NCBI GenBank assembly: GCA_019054805.1
Contig: JAHQIY010000008.1
Span: forward strand, 3,829,501-3,893,500
Length of the DNA: 64,000 bases
Origin: Brachionus manjavacas
Lineage: Eukaryota > Rotifera > Eurotatoria > Ploima > Brachionidae
Reading direction: 5' to 3'
The translations under genes and the position numbers were made by a program. Of the stretch, positions 8,701 to 49,194 are shown piece by piece; the first letter of the stretch is position 1; each line of letters starts with the position of its first letter. The notes beneath the pieces are model-generated. The model was not told the origin of the DNA, did not search any database, and saw only the letters and a program-made list of their open reading frames with translations.

Positions 8701-11700
8701 TGTTCGAGTTTTGTTTTGACTTTATTCAGGTGATTCACCTTGTCTTCTTCTTGTTGCAGTTGCTCAACTGTTTTGGCATTTGTTTCTTCCAAGCGCTTCT
8801 TTTCACGAGTCAATTTGGCAATTGTCTCATCTTGATGAGCCATTTCATCTTGCAGTTTATGAATTTGGTTATCCTTTGACTTGTTATCACCATCGGATTT
8901 GCTTAATTTTGAGCGTAAATCGTCGATGTCTTTTTTCAAATCATTTATTTCTTGCTCTAGCTTTTTCTTTTTTGAATTCAAATCGCTCGATGCTTGTTCT
9001 TCGTCACCTAATCTCTCTTCTAAATCTTTTACTTGACCTTCCAAATCAGCCTTTTGCAAGACCAACTTTTGTATTCTTTCTTCTGCATTGCCGCTGTTAT
9101 CTCTTTCGGACTGCAACTGTGTATACAATTCGTTCTTTTCTTTGAGTAGTTTCAAGTTGGTCTCTTCTAGTTCTTTTCTTAGCTTCTCTTCTTTTTCCAG
9201 AGTTTCTTTGATCTTGCTAAATTCTTCTTCTTTGGCTTTGAGCTCATCTTCCTGTCTGGCAACCGACAACAATGGTTTGACTTTGGTGTACAATTTCCAC
9301 CATGGCCAATTTCTCAAAGACAAATAGGCTTTTATGTTTCGCTGCAATACACTCAATGCCAAACGTTGATCCAACATTATCTTGTAATGTTTTTTCATCA
9401 AGTACAATCTTATGTTCGATTGTAACATGGCAATAATCTTTGACAAAGCTGCATCTCTTAACTCTTCTAAATGACCCAAGACTCCAGCTTTGAAAAAAAC
9501 TTTAGTGTGGCCAAGTCTATATAATTCTTCACCAAGAGCGATTTCTTTTAAGATAGCACCAGTTGCCTTAGTTGCGTCCACAAATCCTTTGGGCACAGCA
9601 TTTGGAGCCAATATGCTGTATCTTTGCTTGAACTCAGCATAGATCATTCGATTTGGAAAACCTTTACGGCAAATACGAATGCCTTCCAACACACCATTAC
9701 AATGAAGCTGGTGCATAACCAAATGAGGATCCAATACTCCGCCAGTTTTGATTTCATTTGGGATAATGCAACGAACAAAATGAGGATGAGTCTGCTTCAA
9801 AGTATTCATCAACTTGTTCAATTGTTCTCTGTGACCAGCTGAGATAGACTGCATGCTACCACCTTTCTTGGCTTTGCCTTTTTCTTCTTCTTGTCCCATG
9901 TCTTGATACAATGTAGCCAAAACAGAATTTGTTTTACTGCCTTTGAACAATGTAGCAACAGTTGTGTTGATGGGATCCTTGTTCTTTTCTAACCAGCCAG
10001 TCACATTGTAGGAAACAGTGCCAGCATAGTGATGCAAGTCAAAGTGTGCTTCGGCTTTTCCCTTAGATGGTTTTGGTTTTCCAAAGTTTGGATGTTTGCC
10101 CAAATGTTGATTGTACAATTTTTCTTGGAAAGTCTTGTCTGAAGCTTTTGGGACAATACATTCTTCTTCAAGAATCGAGAAAATACCCATAGGTTTTTCA
10201 ATCAAATCAATGCAAGCTTGTAAATCCAGGCCAAAGTTGATCATTTCCCATTGAATGCCTTCTCTTTTGTACTCTTCTTGTTCCAATACAAACATATGAT
10301 GGTTGAAAAACTGCTGTAGTCTTTCGTTGGTGTAATTGATGCAAATTTGCTCAAATCCATTGAAATCAAAGATTTCAAAACCAGCAATATCCAAAACACC
10401 AATAAAGTATTGTCTTTTAGCTTTTACATCAAGAGTAGTATTTACTCTATCAACTAACCATTGGAAAAGACGTGAATAGATGGACTTTGACAAAGCGCCA
10501 ATTGAATTGCACACTTGATCTTTGTTCTGGCCTTTGTTTACATATTCATTGCCAACTTTGATTCTTGGTTTCAACAAGCCCTTGATCAAGTCAGCTGATT
10601 CTACGCCCAATAAATGCGCAACTTTTTCACACTCTTCGGTTCCATCAGTTTCGGCCTGTTCCTCTCTTGGTCTTTGTTTCCATTTTGAGTTACCCCAGTG
10701 CATGATAGCACCAGTGCATTTAAACAGATCAGTTTTTTCTTGTTTGCTAAAGTTCAAGATATCGAAGGCCTCATCAGTCAGTCTCATTTCTTCGGCATCA
10801 TCTACATTGTCAATAGTGACCATTCCTTGCGCTATGAAGTGATACAACTTTGGATTAGCTTCTACCAACAATTCCTCTTAAAATGAAAAAAAAAAAAAAG
10901 GTAAAATAATTTTTATTCTATTTATTTAATAAGCAATAAATTACTGTGATAATCCGGAAAAGCATCGGACAATAGCTGATAGAAAATGTGATAGTTTCTC
11001 TCAGCTGGCTGTTGAAAAGTAACTCTTGACTTTTCAAGCAAATAAGATTCAATGTCGGCACCAGCAATTTTACCACTTGGACCAAAGTGAATACGAATAA
11101 ATTTACCCTTTTAATTGTTTGCTATAATTAAAAGAATGCTATTTTTTGTCATTAGAGAACTTACAAAACGAGAAGAGTTGTTGTTACGAGTTGTTTTGGC
11201 ATTACCGTAAGCCTCTAATACTGGATTGGCAGAGACGATTTGGTCTTCCAAGTTAGCCTCTTTTTTCTTTAAATTTTTTTAATTGAACTAAAATCTTGAA
11301 ATTTTTTTCCTAAAATCTATCTTACACCATCATCCTTTTTTGGCGCACCGCTAGCAGCAACATAGGCAAAATATTGAATAACCTTCTTGGTGTTTTCAGT
11401 TTTACCAGCACCAGATTCACCACTTTTTTCAGTTTACATAATTAAATTAAAAAAAAAAAAATCTAGAACCCAAAAATTACGTGATCAACATAGATTGGTT
11501 TTCTCTGTCTCTCAACATGTTAGCGTAAGCATTATCAGCAATCGAGTACAAATGTGGTGGTACTTCATTTCTTTTTTTACCTCTGTATAAACCAACCATT
11601 TTCATGGTGTAAATTGGTAATCTTTTGTATGGATTTATTGCAACACAAAAGAGACCAGAATAAGTCTAGAGAAATTAAAATATACTTTAAAAAATTAATT

Positions 11701-17600: not shown

Positions 17601-20600
17601 CTTTCCAAATTATCCTCAGCTTCATCCAAGGTTTGTTCGAGTTTTGTTTTGACTTTATTCAGGTGATTCACCTTGTCTTCTTCTTGTTGCAGTTGCTCAA
17701 CTGTTTTGGCATTTGTTTCTTCCAAGCGCTTCTTTTCACGAGTCAATTTGGCAATTGTCTCATCTTGATGAGCCATTTCATCTTGCAGTTTATGAATTTG
17801 GTTATCCTTTGACTTGTTATCACCATCGGATTTGCTTAATTTTGAGCGTAAATCGTCGATGTCTTTTTTCAAATCATTTATTTCTTGCTCTAGCTTTTTC
17901 TTTTTGAATTCAAATCGCTCGATGCTTGTTCTTCGTCACCTAATCTCTCTTCTAAATCTTTTACTTGACCTTCCAAATCAGCCTTTTGCAAGACCAACTT
18001 TTGTATTCTTTCTTCTGCATTGCCGCTGTTATCTCTTTCGGACTGCAACTGTGTATACAATTCGTTCTTTTCTTTGAGTAGTTTCAAGTTGGTCTCTTCT
18101 AGTTCTTTTCTTAGCTTCTCTTCTTTTTCCAGAGTTTCTTTGATCTTGCTAAATTCTTCTTCTTTGGCTTTGAGCTCATCTTCCTGTCTGGCAACCGACA
18201 ACAATGGTTTGACTTTGGTGTACAATTTCCACCATGGCCAATTTCTCAAAGACAAATAGGCTTTTATGTTTCGCTGCAATACACTCAATGCCAAACGTTG
18301 ATCCAACATTATCTTGTAATGTTTTTTCATCAAGTACAATCTTATGTTCGATTGTAACATGGCAATAATCTTTGACAAAGCTGCATCTCTTAACTCTTCT
18401 AAATGACCCAAGACTCCAGCTTTGAAAAAAACTTTAGTGTGGCCAAGTCTATATAATTCTTCACCAAGAGCGATTTCTTTTAAGATAGCACCAGTTGCCT
18501 TAGTTGCGTCCACAAATCCTTTGGGCACAGCATTTGGAGCCAATATGCTGTATCTTTGCTTGAACTCAGCATAGATCATTCGATTTGGAAAACCTTTACG
18601 GCAAATACGAATGCCTTCCAACACACCATTACAATGAAGCTGGTGCATAACCAAATGAGGATCCAATACTCCGCCAGTTTTGATTTCATTTGGGATAATG
18701 CAACGAACAAAATGAGGATGAGTCTGCTTCAAAGTATTCATCAACTTGTTCAATTGTTCTCTGTGACCAGCTGAGATAGACTGCATGCTACCACCTTTCT
18801 TGGCTTTGCCTTTTTCTTCTTCTTGTCCCATGTCTTGATACAATGTAGCCAAAACAGAATTTGTTTTACTGCCTTTGAACAATGTAGCAACAGTTGTGTT
18901 GATGGGATCCTTGTTCTTTTCTAACCAGCCAGTCACATTGTAGGAAACAGTGCCAGCATAGTGATGCAAGTCAAAGTGTGCTTCGGCTTTTCCCTTAGAT
19001 GGTTTTGGTTTTCCAAAGTTTGGATGTTTGCCCAAATGTTGATTGTACAATTTTTCTTGGAAAGTCTTGTCTGAAGCTTTTGGGACAATACATTCTTCTT
19101 CAAGAATCGAGAAAATACCCATAGGTTTTTCAATCAAATCAATGCAAGCTTGTAAATCCAGGCCAAAGTTGATCATTTCCCATTGAATGCCTTCTCTTTT
19201 GTACTCTTCTTGTTCCAATACAAACATATGATGGTTGAAAAACTGCTGTAGTCTTTCGTTGGTGTAATTGATGCAAATTTGCTCAAATCCATTGAAATCA
19301 AAGATTTCAAAACCAGCAATATCCAAAACACCAATAAAGTATTGTCTTTTAGCTTTTACATCAAGAGTAGTATTTACTCTATCAACTAACCATTGGAAAA
19401 GACGTGAATAGATGGACTTTGACAAAGCGCCAATTGAATTGCACACTTGATCTTTGTTCTGGCCTTTGTTTACATATTCATTGCCAACTTTGATTCTTGG
19501 TTTCAACAAGCCCTTGATCAAGTCAGCTGATTCTACGCCCAATAAATGCGCAACTTTTTCACACTCTTCGGTTCCATCAGTTTCGGCCTGTTCCTCTCTT
19601 GGTCTTTGTTTCCATTTTGAGTTACCCCAGTGCATGATAGCACCAGTGCATTTAAACAGATCAGTTTTTTCTTGTTTGCTAAAGTTCAAGATATCGAAGG
19701 CCTCATCAGTCAGTCTCATTTCTTCGGCATCATCTACATTGTCAATAGTGACCATTCCTTGCGCTATGAAGTGATACAACTTTGGATTAGCTTCTACCAA
19801 CAATTCCTCTTAAAATGAAAAAAAAAAAAGGTAAAATAATTTTTATTCTATTTATTTAATAAGCAATAAATTACTGTGATAATCCGGAAAAGCATCGGAC
19901 AATAGCTGATAGAAAATGTGATAGTTTCTCTCAGCTGGCTGTTGAAAAGTAACTCTTGACTTTTCAAGCAAATAAGATTCAATGTCGGCACCAGCAATTT
20001 TACCACTTGGACCAAAGTGAATACGAATAAATTTACCCTTTTAATTGTTTGCTATAATTAAAAGAATGCTATTTTTTTGTCATTAGAGAACTTACAAAAC
20101 GAGAAGAGTTGTTGTTACGAGTTGTTTTGGCATTACCGTAAGCCTCTAATACTGGATTGGCAGAGACGATTTGGTCTTCCAAGTTAGCCTCTTTTTTCTT
20201 TAAATTTTTTTAATTGAACTAAAATCTTGAAATTTTTTTCCTAAAATCTATCTTACACCATCATCCTTTTTTGGCGCACCGCTAGCAGCAACATAGGCAA
20301 AATATTGAATAACCTTCTTGGTGTTTTCAGTTTTACCAGCACCAGATTCACCACTTTTTTCAGTTTACATAATTAAATTAAAAAAAAAATCTAGAACCCA
20401 AAAATTACGTGATCAACATAGATTGGTTTTCTCTGTCTCTCAACATGTTAGCGTAAGCATTATCAGCAATCGAGTACAAATGTGGTGGTACTTCATTTCT
20501 TTTTTTACCTCTGTATAAACCAACCATTTTCATGGTGTAAATTGGTAATCTTTTGTATGGATTTATTGCAACACAAAAGAGACCAGAATAAGTCTAGAGA

Positions 20601-26500: not shown

Positions 26501-29500
26501 TTATCTAAATCAGCACGGCCTTTCTTTTCCCTTTCCAAATTATCCTCAGCTTCATCCAAGGTTTGTTCGAGTTTTGTTTTGACTTTATTCAGGTGATTCA
26601 CCTTGTCTTCTTCTTGTTGCAGTTGCTCAACTGTTTTGGCATTTGTTTCTTCCAAGCGCTTCTTTTCACGAGTCAATTTGGCAATTGTCTCATCTTGATG
26701 AGCCATTTCATCTTGCAGTTTATGAATTTGGTTATCCTTTGACTTGTTATCACCATCGGATTTGCTTAATTTTGAGCGTAAATCGTCGATGTCTTTTTCA
26801 AATCATTTATTTCTTGCTCTAGCTTTTTCTTTTTTGAATTCAAATCGCTCGATGCTTGTTCTTCGTCACCTAATCTCTCTTCTAAATCTTTTACTTGACC
26901 TTCCAAATCAGCCTTTTGCAAGACCAACTTTTGTATTCTTTCTTCTGCATTGCCGCTGTTATCTCTTTCGGACTGCAACTGTGTATACAATTCGTTCTTT
27001 TCTTTGAGTAGTTTCAAGTTGGTCTCTTCTAGTTCTTTTCTTAGCTTCTCTTCTTTTTCCAGAGTTTCTTTGATCTTGCTAAATTCTTCTTCTTTGGCTT
27101 TGAGCTCATCTTCCTGTCTGGCAACCGACAACAATGGTTTGACTTTGGTGTACAATTTCCACCATGGCCAATTTCTCAAAGACAAATAGGCTTTTATGTT
27201 TCGCTGCAATACACTCAATGCCAAACGTTGATCCAACATTATCTTGTAATGTTTTTTCATCAAGTACAATCTTATGTTCGATTGTAACATGGCAATAATC
27301 TTTGACAAAGCTGCATCTCTTAACTCTTCTAAATGACCCAAGACTCCAGCTTTGAAAAAAACTTTAGTGTGGCCAAGTCTATATAATTCTTCACCAAGAG
27401 CGATTTCTTTTAAGATAGCACCAGTTGCCTTAGTTGCGTCCACAAATCCTTTGGGCACAGCATTTGGAGCCAATATGCTGTATCTTTGCTTGAACTCAGC
27501 ATAGATCATTCGATTTGGAAAACCTTTACGGCAAATACGAATGCCTTCCAACACACCATTACAATGAAGCTGGTGCATAACCAAATGAGGATCCAATACT
27601 CCGCCAGTTTTGATTTCATTTGGGATAATGCAACGAACAAAATGAGGATGAGTCTGCTTCAAAGTATTCATCAACTTGTTCAATTGTTCTCTGTGACCAG
27701 CTGAGATAGACTGCATGCTACCACCTTTCTTGGCTTTGCCTTTTTCTTCTTCTTGTCCCATGTCTTGATACAATGTAGCCAAAACAGAATTTGTTTTACT
27801 GCCTTTGAACAATGTAGCAACAGTTGTGTTGATGGGATCCTTGTTCTTTTCTAACCAGCCAGTCACATTGTAGGAAACAGTGCCAGCATAGTGATGCAAG
27901 TCAAAGTGTGCTTCGGCTTTTCCCTTAGATGGTTTTGGTTTTCCAAAGTTTGGATGTTTGCCCAAATGTTGATTGTACAATTTTTCTTGGAAAGTCTTGT
28001 CTGAAGCTTTTGGGACAATACATTCTTCTTCAAGAATCGAGAAAATACCCATAGGTTTTTCAATCAAATCAATGCAAGCTTGTAAATCCAGGCCAAAGTT
28101 GATCATTTCCCATTGAATGCCTTCTCTTTTGTACTCTTCTTGTTCCAATACAAACATATGATGGTTGAAAAACTGCTGTAGTCTTTCGTTGGTGTAATTG
28201 ATGCAAATTTGCTCAAATCCATTGAAATCAAAGATTTCAAAACCAGCAATATCCAAAACACCAATAAAGTATTGTCTTTTAGCTTTTACATCAAGAGTAG
28301 TATTTACTCTATCAACTAACCATTGGAAAAGACGTGAATAGATGGACTTTGACAAAGCGCCAATTGAATTGCACACTTGATCTTTGTTCTGGCCTTTGTT
28401 TACATATTCATTGCCAACTTTGATTCTTGGTTTCAACAAGCCCTTGATCAAGTCAGCTGATTCTACGCCCAATAAATGCGCAACTTTTTCACACTCTTCG
28501 GTTCCATCAGTTTCGGCCTGTTCCTCTCTTGGTCTTTGTTTCCATTTTGAGTTACCCCAGTGCATGATAGCACCAGTGCATTTAAACAGATCAGTTTTTT
28601 CTTGTTTGCTAAAGTTCAAGATATCGAAGGCCTCATCAGTCAGTCTCATTTCTTCGGCATCATCTACATTGTCAATAGTGACCATTCCTTGCGCTATGAA
28701 GTGATACAACTTTGGATTAGCTTCTACCAACAATTCCTCTTAAAATGAAAAAAAAAAAAAAAGGTAAAATAATTTTTATTCTATTTATTTAATAAGCAAT
28801 AAATTACTGTGATAATCCGGAAAAGCATCGGACAATAGCTGATAGAAAATGTGATAGTTTCTCTCAGCTGGCTGTTGAAAAGTAACTCTTGACTTTTCAA
28901 GCAAATAAGATTCAATGTCGGCACCAGCAATTTTACCACTTGGACCAAAGTGAATACGAATAAATTTACCCTTTTAATTGTTTGCTATAATTAAAAGAAT
29001 GCTATTTTTTTGTCATTAGAGAACTTACAAAACGAGAAGAGTTGTTGTTACGAGTTGTTTTGGCATTACCGTAAGCCTCTAATACTGGATTGGCAGAGAC
29101 GATTTGGTCTTCCAAGTTAGCCTCTTTTTTCTTTAAATTTTTTTAATTGAACTAAAATCTTGAAATTTTTTTCCTAAAATCTATCTTACACCATCATCCT
29201 TTTTTGGCGCACCGCTAGCAGCAACATAGGCAAAATATTGAATAACCTTCTTGGTGTTTTCAGTTTTACCAGCACCAGATTCACCACTTTTTTCAGTTTA
29301 CATAATTAAATTAAAAAAAAAAAAAATCTAGAACCCAAAAATTACGTGATCAACATAGATTGGTTTTCTCTGTCTCTCAACATGTTAGCGTAAGCATTAT
29401 CAGCAATCGAGTACAAATGTGGTGGTACTTCATTTCTTTTTTTACCTCTGTATAAACCAACCATTTTCATGGTGTAAATTGGTAATCTTTTGTATGGATT

Positions 29501-33096: not shown

Positions 33097-35912
33097 TCAA
33101 GTTTCAGGAAAAATAGAAGAAATAGTAAGGTAGCAATTACACAATGGAGTTGGGTATTCAATATATCTTGATTCGAAACCTTCTTTGTATTCTTTCACCA
33201 GTCTTTCAACCAATGGAATAGAATGACTCAGTCCTGTCCCAACATATTTCTCGCTCAACTCAAAAAGACGATTCGAGACTGTTAGTAATTTTAGTTTATT
33301 AAAAGCTTCATGTTGCACGATGTTGGAGGGAGTATCATATTTTAACTTAAGGATAGATCTTACTGCTGTATTCTGAATTGCTTGTAGTTTTTTGATATTA
33401 TTTTCTGAAAATGAATTTAAGCAAGGAAAAGAATAGTCTAAAATCGATCCGACTAAAGATTTATATAAATTTCCTAGTGTGTTTTGATTGAGACCCCATT
33501 TTTTGTTTGACAAAATCTTAACAATATTTAGCCTTTTGTTGCAGCGTTCTTTAATTTCGTCTACTAGTGTATTAAAGTTTAACTTAGAATCAAATTTAAT
33601 ACCAAGAAACTTTATTTCTTTTTGGCTCACTATTCTGTTTCCATAGATTTTTAAGTTAAGATTATCACTTTCTTTCTTGTACTTAGAGAATACTACTGAA
33701 CACGACTTTTCAACTGACATCTTCATTTTCCACTTAATTAGCCATTGTTCTAGCTCGTTGGTGTATTTATTTATCTTATTTTCTAGGTTCCCTTTCTTGT
33801 TATAAATGAAGAATGTAACTAGATCATCTGCGAAAAGCAGAGAGTATTCATTATTTGTTTTGTTTCTTTTTGGGATGTCATTAATATAAATACTAAATAA
33901 AAGAGGACTTATTACTGAGCCTTGAGGAACACCTGCAGTTATTTGATATTCGTCGCTCAATTGGTCATTCACATATACCTTAAATGTCCTACTATCTGAA
34001 AACGATCTAATCCAGTTAGTCAAGTAATGAGGTAGATTTATTTTAATCAATTTAAAAAGTAGACCTTCATGCCAAACCCTATCAAAGGCTTTAGAAATAT
34101 CAAAAAAAAGGCCACAAACTCTTTTTTTTCTATTAAATGATTCCACAATTTTTTGAATTAAAAAGAAAAGATTATCTGATGTTCTCCGGTGTTTCCTAAA
34201 TCCAGATTGCTCCTGGATAAGGAGTGAATTTTGTTCCAAATAATTGTATAATCTTGAAAATACTATGCGTTCCAGGAGCTTTCCTAAACAACTCGTTATA
34301 ATAATTGGTCTATAATTTAAAGGATCTTGTAAAGAAGAGGCTTTTTTTTGAATCATTGTAATGTTCGATGTTTTCCATGCTTTAGGGACTCTACCTTCTC
34401 GAAGAGATAAATTAAAAAGTTCTATAATTTCTATTAATGAATTTCTAGGTAAGTTTTTTAACATTAGATTATGAATTTGGTCAGGTCCTGATGCCGCTTC
34501 ATTTTTCAATCTTTTTAGAGCCATAATTAATTCATTTAAGCAAATTGGATCATTAAAATTAGACTGATCATAATTTCTAAAGAATTCAGAGTTAGAATTA
34601 AGTATTTCGAAATCTTTATCACGATCTATTAAATCAGAATTAGGACTAAATATTGAAGATAGGAGTTCTCCAAAGCATTTTCCCTTTTCTTCATTAGTTT
34701 TGAATTCCTTGTCATTTAAAAACAAATTTGGGATTAAATTTGATCCTTTTTTTGATCTAAATTTATTTATTTTTTTCCAGAATGGTCTACTTGTTAGTGG
34801 GTTTTTTCCCATTTTCTCAATAAAATCAAACCAATTTTGATTCCAGAATTTTTTTAAAGAGGCCTTAAACTCGAATGTAAGTTGATTAAATTTTTTCTTG
34901 AGATTTTGGCAGCGAGTTTTTTGAAAGTTTCTTCTTACTCTCCTACTTTCTTTTATCAGAATAACAATGTTCGGGGGAAGACTGGTTTTGTAAATTTTCT
35001 GCGAATGATAAGGAATGCTTTTATGTGAAGTAGAAATAATTTTTTCTGTAATTTTATCATTTAGTTGATCTATTGTGAGGGAACTTCAGTGATATTCACT
35101 ATTTGAGAATTTAAAATCTCGCTGAATAATTGCCAGTTTGCTTTCTTATAGTTAAACTTTTTAGCTGCTGATTTATTTTCTAATTGATAGCCCATAGAAA
35201 TCGATGCTTCGATTGGGAAATGGTCACTAGTCATGTCTTGACTATTTTGGACACAAAAGTCGGTAATTTTGTCAATTAATGAAGATGAAACTAAGAAAAG
35301 ATCAAGAATTTCAAAGTAATTCCTATTAAAAATATTGAAAGTAGGACGCTTATCATTAATTACTGAGAAGTCTAACTCATTGATTATTCTTTCCAACATT
35401 ATGCCGTTTTCATTTTCCCCTACGCAGCCTATTTGCTTTGTTCTGGCGTTAAGATCACCACCTAAAATGTAGTTTCTACATTTTTTATTAACAGTTTTAA
35501 AAAACTCAAAGTTCAGAAGCATATTGGGTGGATTATAAAGACTGAATATAAACAATTCATTATTCTTTCCCAAGTTCATTTTTATACAAAGGAGTTCGGA
35601 ATTGAATTCCTCATAAGAGAAATCTTGTATAAATAACTTTCCTTCTTTAATTAAAATTGCTACTCCTCCTCCATACTTGTTGCGTGGTTTCGTTATGAAT
35701 TGATAATTGTGAAAATCAAGATAAATATTTGCCTCACTTAAATCTATCTTTAGTTCATTGAGCAAAACAATGTCTGGACATTTTTGAGCTAAAAAATTGG
35801 CTAAGAGATGAACCCTACTAGGTAAATGAAGACAATTCCAGTGTGTAATTAATAACCTTGTTTTATTAAGAGGTTTTGTTCTTAAAGTTGATTTATTTAT
35901 CTTCTTGTTCAT
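33097..35912 (-). CDS. LINE ORF2: endonuclease and reverse transcriptase
   Basis: The endonuclease part, 35912-35070, has 280 residues starting MNKKINKS. It carries ITHWNCLHL at the N-terminus, LNELKIDL, YGGGVAILI, FSLYNPPNM, GGDLNAR and the catalytic SDHFPI, so all main APE-type motifs are present. The reverse transcriptase part continues to 33097: SGFRKHRRTSDNL, FDISKAFDRVWH, GVPQGSVISPLLFSIYIND, then the catalytic YSLLFADD, and KFLGIKFD, followed by the usual helical C-terminus. The two parts are in different frames: the first ends at PSQ-stop near 35070, and the RT frame is open from about 35085 upstream of its first Met (34812). That is one small frameshift. Otherwise the chain is uninterrupted for over 900 codons. 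Confidence 0.9.
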
Positions 35913-37120
35913 TCTAAATTTTCTTCAATGCTGTTTTGACCGGCAGTTTGCTGACCAATTTCGTTAGATGATTGATCTACTTGAATTGAACATTCAGTTG
36001 TTGAACTGTTTGATTCAGACTTGAAGGTACTGTCGTTTTGATTTTCTAAGACAACTAATGGTTTCTTTGATTCATTTTCGGTGAGCTCTTTTTCATTTGG
36101 ATCAGATTCGGGAAATCTCTTGGTTTGATTTTTGGTTTGGAAAAAATTCTCAGTCTCATTCTGATCATTTGAGCGTACATTGACAGGTGACTGGCATAGT
36201 GGTAGAAAATCGTTTAAACGACTTACCAAAGCTTCTTCTAAAACTGGAGTTTTAAGGTATTTTGGGCTAATTTGGGATATTACGTCATTGAAATTTGTTG
36301 GCTGATATCCAGGTGTTTTTGGCATCACATTTCATCATTATCTTTTTGGTCAGCTTCAAATAATGATTGCGTTTCTTCTTGGTCAATGTAAAGATCATTG
36401 TAGTCAATCTTTTTCCTTTCAAGCGACTTAAGCTTTTCGGCAATGGAGCATTTTTTTGTCAAATGTCCTTTCTGATGACAATTTTCGCATAGTGTTTCAT
36501 GACAGGGCATTTAGCAATGTTGTGTCCTTCATCATCACAAAAATAGCATTTCTGCTTTTGTCCAACAATTGACACAAGACACTTTAAACCATACATTATT
36601 GTGGGGCCTGACAAGCTTCCAATAATATTCTCAACTTCTTTGGAAATGATATTCTCACCCTTCTGACACCATTTTTCCTCTCGGGTCTATCTTTATATTT
36701 TTCTTCGGTAATGTGTTCAATGAGTCCATCAATTCGAACAGCATTAAAGAAGGTTTCAAGTCTATGATTCTCGAAATCAGAGGGCAAGAAGTGAAATCGA
36801 AAAGTACAATACCTTCTGAGATCCGGGACTTTATTTGCATCTTCAAGTCTGAAAATGGTTCCATTGATATTGATGTCACGATCGAAAACTTTGGCAACAT
36901 TAAAAGCAGCATCAAACTCTTTTATCCAAACTTTGTTTGAAGAGAAATTGTAGATACTTGTGATAGCATCATTTTCCACTTGGTTCAGGACGACATCAAG
37001 TGCACTAAATAAGACTTTATGGCTAATCGGTTTATCTAACCTCTTCAAGTTTAGCTTGACCGAATTTTTAAATATCCACCGTCGGTTTTGGTTTGTTTTG
37101 TTGAGCGACATTGCCAACAC
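35909..37120 (-). CDS. LINE ORF1: nucleic-acid-binding protein with zinc knuckles, frameshifted
   Basis: Read in three frame segments. 37120-36596 gives 174 residues (starts MLAMSLNKTNQ) with a fold suggestive of the RRM-like domain of LINE ORF1 proteins. About 36598-36500 in the next frame gives a first knuckle CYFCDDEGHNIAKC. 36510-36325 gives a second knuckle CENCHQKGHLTKKC; both fit CX2CX4HX4C. The chain continues past the knuckles with an acidic, Ser/Asn-rich tail in 36328-35909 whose last codons overlap the ORF2 start as ATGA. The frame steps near 36598 and 36505 would disrupt translation unless they are sequence errors. Confidence 0.75.
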
Positions 37121-42548: not shown

Positions 42549-45500
42549 TTAGTTTCTTCTGATCGAGCTGGCCCTAAATGGTGCAGCGCTAGCAGCTCGA
42601 ATGGGCTGAGGTTCTCTCTAAAGAAAATTTAAAAAATTTTAAAGTTTTAAAATTTTAATCAAAAAATACCTGAGGAGAACTAATTCTAGCAACTGAAACA
42701 GTACTTCGGTTTTTGGCTCTTTGCTTATTTAATTGATTTTCTGCCTGATCTGCTCTTTCAGATGCATCTTCTAATTCTAATTGAACCTTTCGGAACTTGG
42801 CAAGATTTAAAGCAGCTATTTCTTCAGCTTCTTCAACTTGTCTTTTGTAGACTTTCAATTTATTTTGCAACTTCTCTACCAAATCTTGTAATCTAGCCTG
42901 GTTCTTTCGGTCTTCCTCGGCTTGGAAGGCTAATTCTTTTAGTCTTCTGTCATTCTTTCTAACTTCTTTCAAAGTTTCTTGATGGTGTCTTTGTTCAATG
43001 TCCAATTCCGATTCCAATTCATGGATCTTAAGACAAAATAAGTTATTAAAAAAAAAATTAAAAAAATTACTCTTTGTTCAAGTTTTTGAATGATGCGTTT
43101 GCCTCCTTTAAGAGCATTAGCTTCAGCCTCATCCAATCGGACTTGAAGATCTTTAACTTGTTGTTCCAAGCTCTTTCTTAATTTCTCGATATTTAATGCA
43201 TGTTCCTATATTTAAATTAAGAATTTTGTGAAAAATAAAATAAATTAACTAATACTTGTTCCTGTCTCAACTCTTCTGCAAGTCTGGATGCATCAGCAGA
43301 GGCTTTTTTTACTCTTTCCTCAGAATTCTTTAACTCAGAAATAGCTTCATCTAAATCAGCTTGAATAGCTACGAAATCACTTTCTAATTTTCGTTTGAGT
43401 GCTCCCAAATTAGCGTTTGCTGAAGAAAGTTCACTTATTCGATCGGCAGCTTCATGTAAATCATTCTCGGCAGCCTTTCGAGCTCTTTCTGCTTGTTCAA
43501 GAGCTGCTCTAATTTCTTCCAATTCGGAAGCAAGCATATTTGCACGACGCTCAGCTTGAGCAGCAGCTTCACGAGCTTCATCTCTTTGCCTTTGCTCATC
43601 TTCAATTTGAGCTGTTAATTCTTCGATGGTTTGCTGTAGTTTTTTGTTGAATTTTTGTAGATCAGCATTGGCTCTATTCGAATGATCCAAAGAAATTTCA
43701 AGTTCATTGATATCAGTTTCAAGTTTTTTCTTCTGTCTGATAGCTTCGGCTTTTCCTTTTGTTTCTGCTTCCAAACTAGCTTGCATCGATTCCAAAGCGC
43801 GTTGATGGTTGCGTCTTGTGTTTTCGAACTCTTCCTCTTTTTCATGCAGACGTCTGTCGATTTCTTGTCTCACTTGACTCAATTCCAATTGAGCTCTCAA
43901 CACTTTGGCTTCTTCTTGTTCCAAAGCACCTTCAGCTTCTTCCAAAGCGGCTTGTAGTTCGTCTTTCTCGATTTCGAGTCTCTTTCTAGATTTTTCCAAT
44001 TCATGAATTGATTTTCCACCTTCGCCTAGTTGGTCCATCAAGTCTTTGATTTCATCAGCCAGGTTTTTGTTCTCACGTCTTAGAGCTTCAATTGATTCAT
44101 GGCTTTCTTCGTATTGAGTTTTCAATTTAAACAGTTCGGTTGAATACTGACGAGCTTCTTTTTGTGATGCTTCTAATTCCAAAGTGATGTCCTCACATTT
44201 TTGTTTCCATTCACCGATCAATTTGTCAAATTGCTTTTGTTTTTTTTCCATGGCAGCAGCATTTGAGTTAGCTCGTTCGACATCGACCATTAAATCTTCA
44301 ACTTCAGCTTGAAGTCTCTGCTTAGTCTTTTCTAGACTGTTGCATTTAGCCAACGCTTCTTCAACTTGCTCTTCGGCTTCTGCCAGTTTTGCAGCAAGCT
44401 TTCTCTTAGCCTCTTCGAGCTCCTCGGCTCTTGCAAGACCTTCTATTTCATATTTAGATCTCCATGAGATCATCTCGCTATTCACTCTGGCTAATTGTTT
44501 TTGAAGATCAGCTCTTGCTTCATGTTCTTCTTCAATTTGTTCACGAGCTTGGTCTAAGTCGGCTGTTACATTTCTTAACTGTTGGGCTAAACCATTCTTT
44601 GCTCTTGCTTCCTCATCTGCATTTCTTCTTGCTTCTTCGATTTGTGATTGAAGAAGTTGTCTTGTTTTATTAAATCCGCTAATTTGACTTTCGAAATCTT
44701 CAACCTGAGCTGACAAATTACTATTTTCAGATTGCAGTTTATTGTTGCGAGAGTTTAGTTCTTGTATTGATCTATTTGAGTCGTCCAATTTAATATTCAA
44801 TTCTTGTAATTGCTGTTCTAGTTGTTTTGCCAATTTTTCAATATTTGCCTTAAAAGAAAAGTATTACATTTTGAATTTTGTTATTTTTTAAAAAAGCTTA
44901 CTCTGGCCTTATTTGCATGATCAGTTTGTAATCTTGCTTCATCAACCTCCGATTTTATTATTTGCTTTTCTTTTTCCAGTTTATTTCTTGATTTCTGTAA
45001 TTGATCTATTTGTTCACCCATCTCGTTTACTGCATCTTGATGCTTCTTTCTTAACTGAGCGGTAGTTGCTTCGTGCTGTAGATTAGCTTCTTCTAAATCA
45101 CGTCTCAATTTAGCCAATTCAGACTCTCGTTTTTTATTCAATTCAAGTTGAGCAGTTGTAGCTCCACCAGCCTCTTCTAGCCTTTCATTTAGCTCATCCA
45201 ACTCACGAGACAAATCAGCTCTTTGTTTTTCAGCTTTATTTTTGGATTGTCGCTCCGATTCAATTTCTTCTTGCGATTCATCTAATCTTTGCTGTAATTC
45301 TTTAATCTTTTTATGCAAATTTGCTACTTGACCATGTTCATCTTCAACTTTGGCGCCCAGGTTATTCAATTCAGCATCTTTGCGTTTCAAATTATCCTCT
45401 AGATCTTTTTTGAGTCTCTCGACTTCTTCTATTTGGGCTTGAGCATTCTTTAAATCTGCCTCCAATTTTCGTTTAGCCTTATCTAAATCAGCACGGCCTT

Positions 45501-48500
45501 TCTTTTCCCTTTCTAAATTATCCTCAGCTTCATCCAAGGTTTGTTCGAGTTTTGTTTTGACTTTATTCAGGTGATTCACCTTGTCTTCTTCTTGTTGCAG
45601 TTGCTCAACTGTTTTGGCATTTGTTTCTTCCAAGCGCTTCTTTTCACGAGTCAATTTGGCAATTGTCTCATCTTGATGAGCCATTTCATCTTGCAGTTTA
45701 TGAATTTGGTTATCCTTGCTTTTATTTTCAGAATCAGATTTATTTAGCTTTAGATTCATCTCATCTATGTCTTTTTTTAAATCATTTATTTCGTGTTCGA
45801 GTTTCTTTTTTTTTGCGTTTAACTCTCCGGCCATTTCTTCTTCCTCTCCCAACTTATCTTCTAGATCTTTTACCTGCCCTTCAAGATCAGCTTTTTGTAA
45901 GACAAGTTTTTGGATTTTTTCTTCAGCTATTCCATAACCATCCCTTTCTGACTGCAATTGGGTGAATAATTCATTCTTATCCTTTAGAAGTTTCAAATTT
46001 GAATCCTCAAATTCTTTTCTCAATTTTTCTTCCTTTTCGAAAGCTTCTTTAAGTTTAATGAGCTCTTCTTCTTTGGCTTTGAGCTCATCTTCCTGTCTGG
46101 CAACCGACAACAATGGTTTGACTTTGGTGTACAATTTCCACCATGGCCAATTTCTCAAAGACAAATAGGCTTTTATGTTGCGTTGCAATACACTCAATGC
46201 CAAACGCTGATCTAACATTCTCTTAAATTGTTTTTTCATTAGATACATTCTGATGTTTGATTGCAACATGGCAATAATCTTGGACAAAGCAGCATCTCTT
46301 AACTCTTCAAGTTGACCTAATACGCCTGCTTTGAAGAAAACTTTTGTGTGACCTAGTCGATATAAATCTTCGCTTAAAGCAATATCTTTCAAAATGGATC
46401 CAGTTGCCTTAGTTGCGTCCACAAATCCTTTGGGCACAGCATTTGGAGCCAATATGCTGTATCTTTGCTTGAACTCAGCATAGATCATTCGATTTGGAAA
46501 ACCTTTACGGCAAATACGAATGCCTTCCAACACACCATTACAATGAAGCTGGTGCATAACCAAATGAGGATCCAATACTCCGCCAGTTTTGATTTCATTT
46601 GGAATAATGCAACGAACAAAATGAGGATGAGTCTGCTTCAAAGTATTCATCAACTTGTTCAATTGTTCTCTGTGACCAGATGAGATAGACTGCATGCTAC
46701 CACCTTTCTTGGCTTTGCCTTTTTCTTCTTCTTGACCCATATCTTTATACAGTTTAGCCAAAACAGAATTATTTTTGCTAGTTTTGAACAATGTGGCAAC
46801 AGTTGTGTTGATGGGATCCTTGTTCTTTTCTAACCAGCCAGTCACATTGTAGGAAACAGTGCCAGCATAGTGATGCAAGTCAAAGTGTGCTTCGGCTTTT
46901 CCTTTGGATGGTCTTGGCTTTCCAAAGTTAGGATGCTTTCCCAAATGTTGATTGTAAAGTTTTTCTTGAAAGGTTTTGTCGCTAGCTTTTGGAACAATGC
47001 ATTCTTCTTCAAGAATCGAGAAAATACCCATAGGTTTTTCAATCAAATCAATGCAAGCTTGTAAATCCAAGCCAAAGTTGATCATTTCCCATTGAATTCC
47101 TTCTTTTCTGTACTCTTCCTGTTCCAATACAAACATATGATGGTTGAAAAACTGCTGTAGTCTTTCGTTAGTGTAATTGATGCAAATTTGCTCAAATCCA
47201 TTGAAATCAAAGATTTCAAAACCAGCAATATCCAAAACACCAATAAAGTATTGTCTTTTAGCTTTTACATCAAGAGTTTCATTGACTCTGTCAACTAACC
47301 ATTGGAAAAGACGTGAATAGATGGACTTTGACAAAGCGCCAATTGAATTGCACACTTGATCTTTGTTCTGGCCTTTGTTTACATATTCATTGCCAACTTT
47401 GATTCTTGGTTTCAACAAGCCCTTGATCAAGTCAGCTGATTGAACTCCTAGTAAGTGAGCCACTTTTTCACACTCTTCGGTTCCATCAGTTTCGGCCTGT
47501 TCCTCTCTTGGTCTTTGTTTCCATTTTGAGTTACCCCAGTGCATGATAGCACCAGTGCATTTAAACAGATCAGTTTTTTCTTGTTTGCTAAAGTTCAAGA
47601 TATCGAAGGCCTCATCAGTCAGTCTCATTTCTTCGGCATCATCTACATTGTCAATAGTGACCATTCCTTGCGCTATGAAGTGATACAACTTTGGATTAGC
47701 TTCTACCAACAATTCCTCTTAAAATGAAAAAAAAAAAAAAAGGTAAAATAATTTTTATTCTATTTATTTAATAAGCAATAAATTACTGTGATAATCCGGA
47801 AAAGCATCGGACAATAGCTGATAGAAAATGTGATAGTTTCTCTCAGCTGGCTGTTGAAAAGTAACTCTTGACTTTTCAAGCAAATAAGATTCAATGTCGG
47901 CACCAGCAATTTTACCACTTGGACCAAAGTGAATACGAATAAATTTACCCTTTTAAATTTAGCATTTTACTTGTTGTTGTCAAATAATACTGCCAAAATT
48001 TTCATGCTCTGTTAAAAGAATAACCATGCATATTTTAGGGTAACTACTTACAAATCTAGAGGAGTTATTATTACGGGTTGTTTTAGCATTACCAAAAGCC
48101 TCTAAAACAGGGTTAGATTGTACTATTTGATCTTCCAAATTGGCTTGTTTTGTCTGATTACACACAAAAAGGTTAATTTTAGGATAATAGGTGTTAAACA
48201 AAATAGGGTATTTAGGACAGGTTTTTTCTAGCGCAATTCTTGATTCAACTTTTGAATTTTTTACTTACAAATCGAGAAGAATTATTATTTCTGGTTGTCT
48301 TAGCATTACCATATGCCTCTAATACTGGATTAGCAGAGACAATCTGATCTTCTAGATTAGCCTCTTTTTTCTAAAAATTTTATTTAATTACGATGTAATT
48401 ATTACATTTTGAAGACGTTCCTATTTTTTTTTAATTTAAAATAAAATTCTTACTCCGTCCTCTCTTTTCGGTGCACCACTTGCAGCCACAAATGCAAAGT

Positions 48501-49194
48501 ATTGAATAACCTTTTTAGTATTCTCAGTTTTGCCAGCCCCAGACTCTCCACTTTAGCATACAAATTAGTCCAAAATCTAATTTAATTCATTCGAATACTC
48601 ACGTGATCAACATAGATTGATTCTCTCTGTCTCTCAACATGTTAGCGTAAGCATTGTCAGCAATCGAGTACAAATGTGGTGGTACTTCAGTTCTTTTTTT
48701 ACCTCGGTACAAATCAACCATTTTCATGGTGTAAATTGGTAATCTTTTGTAAGGATTTATTGCAACACAAAAGAGCCCAGAATAAGTCTAGAAAAAATTA
48801 AAATTTACTTTAAAAAATTAATTTTTTTTTTATAAAAAATTATTACATAGATAAACCAGGCCTTGTATCTCTCACGTAAATTGTGCAATACAGAGGCGTC
48901 ATTCAGATAGGTCAGATCAGCCATATCGTCACACTTGTCGAACTTTGGTGGATTCATCTGTTGTATGTCGTCTTTTTTGACCGTGACTTGTTCTCCCTTG
49001 CCAGTCTTGACTGTCACTTCTTCGCCTTTGGTGCTTTGGATCTCAGCAGCAAGGAAACCCTCAGTTTTGTCAGGTATCCAGCAATTCTTTTTGCCATCGA
49101 AAGCCCTAGCCTGCATCTTAATTCTCTCAGATTGGGGTACCAATAAGTACTTAAGAGATTCAACAATCTCTGGATCATTCATATCAGCGTACAT
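42549..49194 (-). CDS. Mhc: muscle myosin heavy chain, copy D (intact)
   Basis: Full-length class II muscle myosin with every frame open. Exons: 49194-48847, 48787-48603, 48550-48454, 48370-48269 (4a) or 48153-48052 (4b), 47949-47787, 47717-44902, 44848-43256, 43205-43071, 43026-42670, 42617-42549. With one version of exon 4 the sum is 1954 codons. P-loop, switch I and II, actin-binding loop 2, converter and rod are all as in A-C. The tail ends SSIRRN. Two features are only here: the duplicated exon 4 and the 53-bp intron at 44849-44901. Divergence from A-C is patchy: exons 1-3, 4b and 7-9 and parts of 6 differ, while others are identical, which suggests conversion. Because it is intact and can make two isoforms, it is the best candidate for the ancestral working gene. 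Confidence 0.95.
44849..44901 (-). other. 53-bp intron present only in myosin D
   Basis: GTAAGC at the 5' side, TTTTAAG at the 3' side, phase 0, between HANKAR and ANIEKLA in the rod. Copies A-C have the two halves joined ([13 protein letters not shown]) with no gap. The flanking coding sequence is among the diverged parts of D. Confidence 0.9.
48052..48153 (-). other. myosin D exon 4b, alternative switch I exon
   Basis: 102 bp, 34 codons, phase 0 on both sides, with acceptor GTAATCAG and donor GTAAGTAG. It encodes [20 protein letters not shown] followed by the switch I end NNNSSRF. It differs from exon 4a at TKQ/KKE, QS/SA and F/Y. Joining both 4a and 4b would duplicate switch I, so they should be used one at a time. 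Copies A-C have only a 57-bp intron here. Confidence 0.88.
48269..48370 (-). other. myosin D exon 4a, switch I exon of the A-C type
   Basis: 102 bp, phase 0, encoding [20 protein letters not shown] and the same NNNSSRF end. Its protein sequence equals exon 4 of copies A-C. It lies 115 bp upstream of exon 4b in gene order, with good splice sites of its own. Confidence 0.9.

Follow-up and report, generated by a model that had tools for sequence, protein, structure and literature searches.

Does a muscle myosin heavy chain (Mhc) gene of the rotifer Brachionus manjavacas choose between two versions of one motor exon, and how old would such a choice be? The question arises from a 64,000-nt stretch of DNA, hereafter the window (C8:3829501-3893500 of a 114 Mb assembly in 61 contigs; GC 26-38% in 4-kb steps), in which one Mhc gene, gene D, carries two successive exons for the same segment of the motor. 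From the sequence, we conclude that these exons, 4a and 4b, very probably form a mutually exclusive pair, located where muscle Mhc genes of other animals have cluster-3, in a monogonont rotifer.

Exons 4a and 4b of gene D

Gene D, with all its exons and introns, lies on the minus strand. Exon 1 contains the start codon (48847-49194) and is followed by exon 2 (48603-48787) and a single exon 3 (48454-48550), which encodes the P-loop and the first part of loop 1. After an 83-nt intron (48371-48453), exon 4a (48269-48370), a 115-nt intron (48154-48268), exon 4b (48052-48153) and a 102-nt intron (47950-48051) succeed one another. Exon 5 (47787-47949) leads to exon 6 (44902-47720), which is open throughout and encodes the rest of the motor, the neck and the start of the tail, with the tail exons downstream. 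A genome search with Pfam Myosin_head, together with PDB matches, qualified D as a class II muscle myosin heavy chain. The best PDB matches of its motor were muscle myosins, with 3i5f first, joined by scallop chains; tarantula, vertebrate and insect muscle chains ranked behind these, as did non-muscle myosins. We take 3i5f to be squid and 1dfk and 2ec6 to be scallop, and the organisms of most PDB chains are assumed in the same way. The squid and scallop chains as best relatives agree with a spiralian lineage.

Both exons reported in the initial annotation were present, each 102 nt (34 codons) long, in phase 0, open and bounded by canonical splice sites, with AG before and GTAAGT after. The donor TTT/GTAAGT is common to 4a, 4b and exon 4 of five further copies of the gene (A, B, C, E and F). 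The two exons share 78 of 102 nucleotides and 29 of 34 residues. The five residue differences, given as 4a/4b in human β-cardiac numbering, are K/T at 211, E/Q at 213, S/Q at 222, A/S at 223 and Y/F at 230, the last of which makes 4a the Tyr type and 4b the Phe type. This numbering was counted back from switch I and anchored on R243 and F244 in the variant list of PMC5469618, which places residues 204 and 214 in loop 1. K/T and E/Q fall at the C-terminal end of loop 1, while S/Q, A/S and Y/F lie in the helix leading into switch I. Each exon begins in the last part of loop 1 and closes with switch I, the latter as in the initial annotation; the proposal that the gene swaps switch I itself did not hold, as all seven residues of this motif (NNNSSRF) are the same in 4a and 4b.

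Selection and homogenisation among ten muscle-type genes

Comparison of 4a with 4b showed changes at about 16.5 of 22.5 synonymous sites versus about 7.5 of 79.5 nonsynonymous sites. Under neutrality, eight or fewer nonsynonymous changes among 24 would be expected with P ~4e-6, and chance is excluded as the source of the likeness between the exons. Because 24 of 102 nucleotides differ but only five of 34 residues, both 4a and 4b are long-lived coding exons under purifying selection.

When the 4b peptide was compared with the assembly translated in six frames (E up to 1), at least 23 matches were obtained: one at 100%, which is 4b itself, at least 10 at 88%, and at least 12 more distant myosin-like places. 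Ten matches at 88% correspond to 4a and to exon 4 of nine other Mhc genes, termed muscle-type by sequence similarity: A, B and C in the window, E and F elsewhere on the same contig (C8), G on C7, and H, I and J on C22. The matches listed in this genome-wide search include 4b only once, in D. The pair had initially been described as absent from three sister copies, which is correct but too narrow a comparison, since all nine other genes have a single exon where D has the alternative pair. The 4a peptide was identical in eight of these nine, with F off by one residue; it is therefore the same in nine of the ten genes, despite heavy change at synonymous sites among several of them. Given this constancy, the five differences of 4b are not the product of loose drift. 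The widespread type is probably 4a, which occurs in ten genes, with 4b as a specialised form.

Copies A, B and C each have a single exon 4 of the 4a type (11165-11266, 20096-20197 and 29029-29130, respectively, minus strand). The intron that follows measures 57 nt in A and 58 nt in B and C, where 57 nt had been annotated for all three, and no 4b remnant was seen in these introns. The three genes are tandem copies spaced about 8.93 kb apart (window 6451-29969) and are identical over the compared 1560 nt of exon 6, in which each carries one 1-nt deletion that breaks the frame, always in a different homopolymer run. The suggestion that the amplified copies are locked into one isoform stands by exon content, although with these frame breaks they may make no full-length protein. 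Small frame breaks also occur in H, I and J (G000:C22:271001-304000), where I and J are oppositely oriented and exons 1 and 2 appear fused in all three genes. In all six genes, the breaks represent either consensus errors or recent pseudogenes. Between C and D, at 33097-35924 of the window, inspection by eye revealed the remains of a non-LTR retrotransposon, with reverse-transcriptase-like and endonuclease-like open frames. No relatives of the D exon 6 peptide were found in genome_contigs or viral_contigs.

We compared D with A exon by exon. Synonymous sites had changed at 35/67 in exon 1, 7/37 in exon 2, 18/22 in exon 3 (which is saturated against A-C), 17/23 in exon 4a, 0/34 in exon 5 and 64/311 in the first 520 codons of exon 6. 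Over the 162 in-frame nucleotides of exon 5, D showed neither synonymous nor nonsynonymous differences from A-C. Across tenths of exon 6, the changed synonymous share ranged from 0.00 to 0.47 and was highest in the last two. Exons 3-4a together differed sharply from exons 2, 5 and 6 (35/44 vs. 71/382, Fisher P ~6e-16, treating sites as independent and leaving out exon 1, which is also raised). The figures against D are identical for A, B and C, which therefore amount to a single comparison rather than three. Comparison of D with F gave 18/23 vs. 133/382 (P ~6e-5; exon 3 was left out, being not comparable without gaps). A tree of exon 6 for eight of the ten genes, with I and J omitted for their frame breaks, placed D as sister to A-C, with support of 100/100 for DNA (unrooted) and 82/88 for protein (rooted on squid and scallop). 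Copies A, B, C and E have near-identical sequences for exon 4 and intron 4, and those of F are close, although A, E and F differ more in other exons.

These comparisons indicate that the exon 3-4 block of D is an old block within a homogenised array. The simplest account would be gene conversion along the array, which would have carried an exon 4 without 4b into A, B, C, E and F and left the D exon 3-4 block unoverwritten; selection may have protected that block from conversion. The ten genes form a natural experiment on the loss or protection of alternative exons in an array undergoing homogenisation.

Proposed splicing switch

In the arrangement we propose, exon 3 would be spliced to one member of the pair, 4a or 4b, and that member to exon 5, so that gene D would yield two motors differing at five residues. 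The equal length, phase and donor sequence of 4a and 4b argue for exclusivity, and use of one exon at a time is suggested by the anatomy of the product, as it is the sole arrangement that would give a normal motor: inclusion of both exons would insert another 34-residue copy, switch I included, into the motor core, whereas skipping both would delete switch I. Since the switch I residues are unchanged, the likely effect of the choice is on loop 1 and the helix behind the pocket, through which nucleotide exchange and the ATPase rate would be tuned. The choice may be specific to tissue or stage.

No intrinsic barrier to double inclusion was found in intron lengths, frame or RNA pairing, and regulated choice of 4a or 4b would therefore be most likely. 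Both double inclusion and double skipping keep the frame, so decay would not remove a double-inclusion transcript. Steric exclusion of 4a by 4b was considered and is unlikely, since the flanking introns are longer than usual for these genes: the introns of 115 and 102 nt exceed the others tabulated for seven of the ten genes (45-83 nt, with one of 128 nt). RNA pairing as a selector was assessed in this one genome by 11 duplex tests and two folds against shuffles, none of them convincing; in the best intron-exon pairing test, 28 of 300 shuffles were as low. A UGUGUG run stands just upstream of the 4b acceptor, in the 4a-4b intron. Runs of this type can serve as sites for CELF/Bruno-type factors, making this one a possible candidate site; over the whole window, TGTGTG is present at four places on the plus strand and at three on the minus strand. 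Separately, the intron after 4a (48154-48268) and the intron after 4b (47950-48051) each contain a single copy of the 7-mer TACCCTA, which may be chance.

Three other explanations of the exon pair were weighed. Exon 4b could be the relic of a once-used alternative exon that is now rarely or never spliced in. Nine of the ten genes lack 4b, having lost it or never had it, and its acceptor is unusual for these genes, scoring lowest of 35 in a crude profile in which eight boundaries are slightly misplaced. A relic of that age should have decayed, however, and 4b retains an open frame, the same donor as 4a and the excess of synonymous over nonsynonymous change described above, which makes this explanation quite improbable. 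The possibility that 4a and 4b are ordinary cassettes, open to joint inclusion or joint skipping, draws on the permissive phases and lengths and on no exclusion mechanism having been found. We consider it very improbable, given that its products would contain either two switch I segments or none, and that known cluster-3 pairs are described as mutually exclusive in the available text of Kollmar and Hatje (2014, PMC3912159). It is barely credible that 4b was put into D from another locus or haplotype during assembly: near-identical tandem copies such as A, B and C are hard to assemble, but 4b occurs nowhere else among the assembly matches listed, and the introns flanking it in D are its own, unlike those of A-C.

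Cluster-3, the age of the pair and the source genome

A mutually exclusive exon cluster at this position, MXE cluster-3, is known from Argopecten, Placopecten, Crassostrea, Aplysia, Biomphalaria, Lottia, squid and Capitella (PMC3912159). The region was initially taken to be unusual, and its occurrence in molluscs and Capitella speaks against this. As in D, the molluscan and annelid cluster-3 consists of two tandem copies of the exon that begins in the last part of loop 1 and closes with switch I; the boundaries of the D pair fit the description in the available part of PMC3912159, and its neighbouring exons (102/102 nt, phase 0, 29/34 residues) have the expected form. Between two scallop sequences, cluster-3 shows Tyr/Phe at the same position as 4a/4b, whereas the remaining differing residues are another set. 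ADP release is influenced by loop 1, where most differences within the scallop pair lie, and 3a is the form of striated muscle, 3b that of catch muscle (PMC3912159); in D, two of the five changes lie at the end of loop 1. Cluster-3 was the only alternative pair found in the motor part of D (to exon 6), as the other introns up to exon 6, at 52-83 nt, are too short to hold a second exon.

Other known systems resemble D in part. The tandem Mhc array of Lottia gigantea has alternative exons in two genes only, of which Mhc5 has cluster-3 only (PMC3912159), and thus shares with the Brachionus array the restriction of alternative exons to some of its muscle Mhc genes. The Brachionus array is also strongly homogenised outside the exon 3-4 block; for Lottia, the available text of PMC3912159 reports nothing of the kind. 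Cluster-0 of Mnemiopsis Mhc2 likewise spans loop 1 and switch I, but with other exon boundaries, and according to the same authors it matches no other known cluster. Drosophila Mhc shares with D the general principle of one motor tuned by exclusive exons. That its switch I region has no alternative exons, as had been stated initially, agrees with the part of PMC3912159 consulted, in which none of Drosophila clusters 1, 5, 7, 10 and 11 covers the cluster-3 exon of D.

The words rotifer, Adineta and Brachionus are absent from PMC3912159, and our search of open-licence PubMed Central literature, by title and abstract start, found no earlier report of rotifer or Brachionus muscle myosin splicing. 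A myosin survey (PMC5583752) includes rotifer class-36 myosins and, in the part available, retains the 5' exon alone where exons are mutually exclusive; unpublished annotation of such pairs in rotifers may therefore exist. The D pair is very probably a kind of switch already known from molluscs and annelids, and its occurrence in a rotifer appears to be new, as far as this search extends. The known range of this muscle-tuning splice switch would thereby widen to a phylum of microscopic animals. A single genome shows both known routes to differing muscle myosins, namely multiplication of the gene and alternative exons within one of the copies.

We compared the residues of the pair across the PDB chains. 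In the region of position 230, Tyr is found in scallop chains 1dfk and 2ec6 and in squid isoform A (3i5f), and Phe in vertebrate skeletal chains such as 2mys and 7nep. The chains 2ec6 and 2os8, presumably both Placopecten, are two forms of the cluster-3 exon, Tyr versus Phe, of which 2os8 would be the catch form. At position 222, Gln is found in 4b, 2ec6, 1dfk and squid, and Ser in 4a and vertebrate skeletal chains; scallop 2os8 has Glu, a fact against a common origin. With 3a assigned to striated and 3b to catch muscle, and 2os8 taken as the catch form, the order of Tyr exon first and Phe exon second in D probably matches that in scallop.

Two origins of the pair were considered, both compatible with mutual exclusivity. 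That the rotifer pair arose by an independent local duplication, and is merely analogous to the molluscan cluster-3, is nearly an even prospect. D does not show the T/V difference that accompanies Tyr/Phe in scallop, position 222 is Ser/Gln in D versus Gln/Glu in scallop, and parsimony over the Tyr/Phe and T/V columns favours one ancient origin by three steps versus four, which is weak either way. Against an independent origin stand the Tyr/Phe at 230 common to both pairs, the saturated synonymous divergence, which points to an old duplication, and the common order with the Tyr exon first, itself dependent on the 3a/3b statement and the presumed catch form of 2os8. Tentatively, the pair may instead descend from one duplication predating the split between Gnathifera and the mollusc/annelid lineage, with the Tyr-first, Phe-second order as its hallmark, and selection may have held the D exon 3-4 block while conversion homogenised the array and spread the 4b-less exon 4. 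By elimination from the available text of PMC3912159, cluster-3 was gained at the annelid-mollusc ancestor; a single ancient duplication would be older than this ancestor. A handful of additional genomes from Gnathifera would suffice to date the switch.

The source of the genome was examined with published rotifer markers. The MMR-B forward primer of B. manjavacas (PMC2746195) matched at 26/26 positions, with two further sites at one mismatch, and its reversed control had no match in the genome. The locus encodes a short leader followed by three near-identical repeats, of which the final one is truncated, with a reverse primer site at one mismatch, and this layout agrees with MMR-B3 as given in the available part of PMC2746195. 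Because of the primer match and the repeat layout, the genome is that of Brachionus, either B. manjavacas or a very near relative, which places it in Monogononta within Rotifera, Gnathifera and Spiralia. MMR-B type genes lie at G000:C7:5.02-5.12 Mb, with repeats of about 87 codons. The rotifer spliced leader (PMC3795323) had no match in the genome at two or fewer mismatches, and a bdelloid origin was rejected on its absence; the leader is also absent from B. plicatilis transcripts in the available text of PMC1925144. A COX1 search gave a single match, on contig C21, within what is by eye a bacterial-type terminal oxidase gene cluster, probably from a bacterial associate or contaminant. A 5S search gave 47 matches. 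Several contig ends carry sequence that is similar by eye, perhaps a satellite or subtelomeric repeat.
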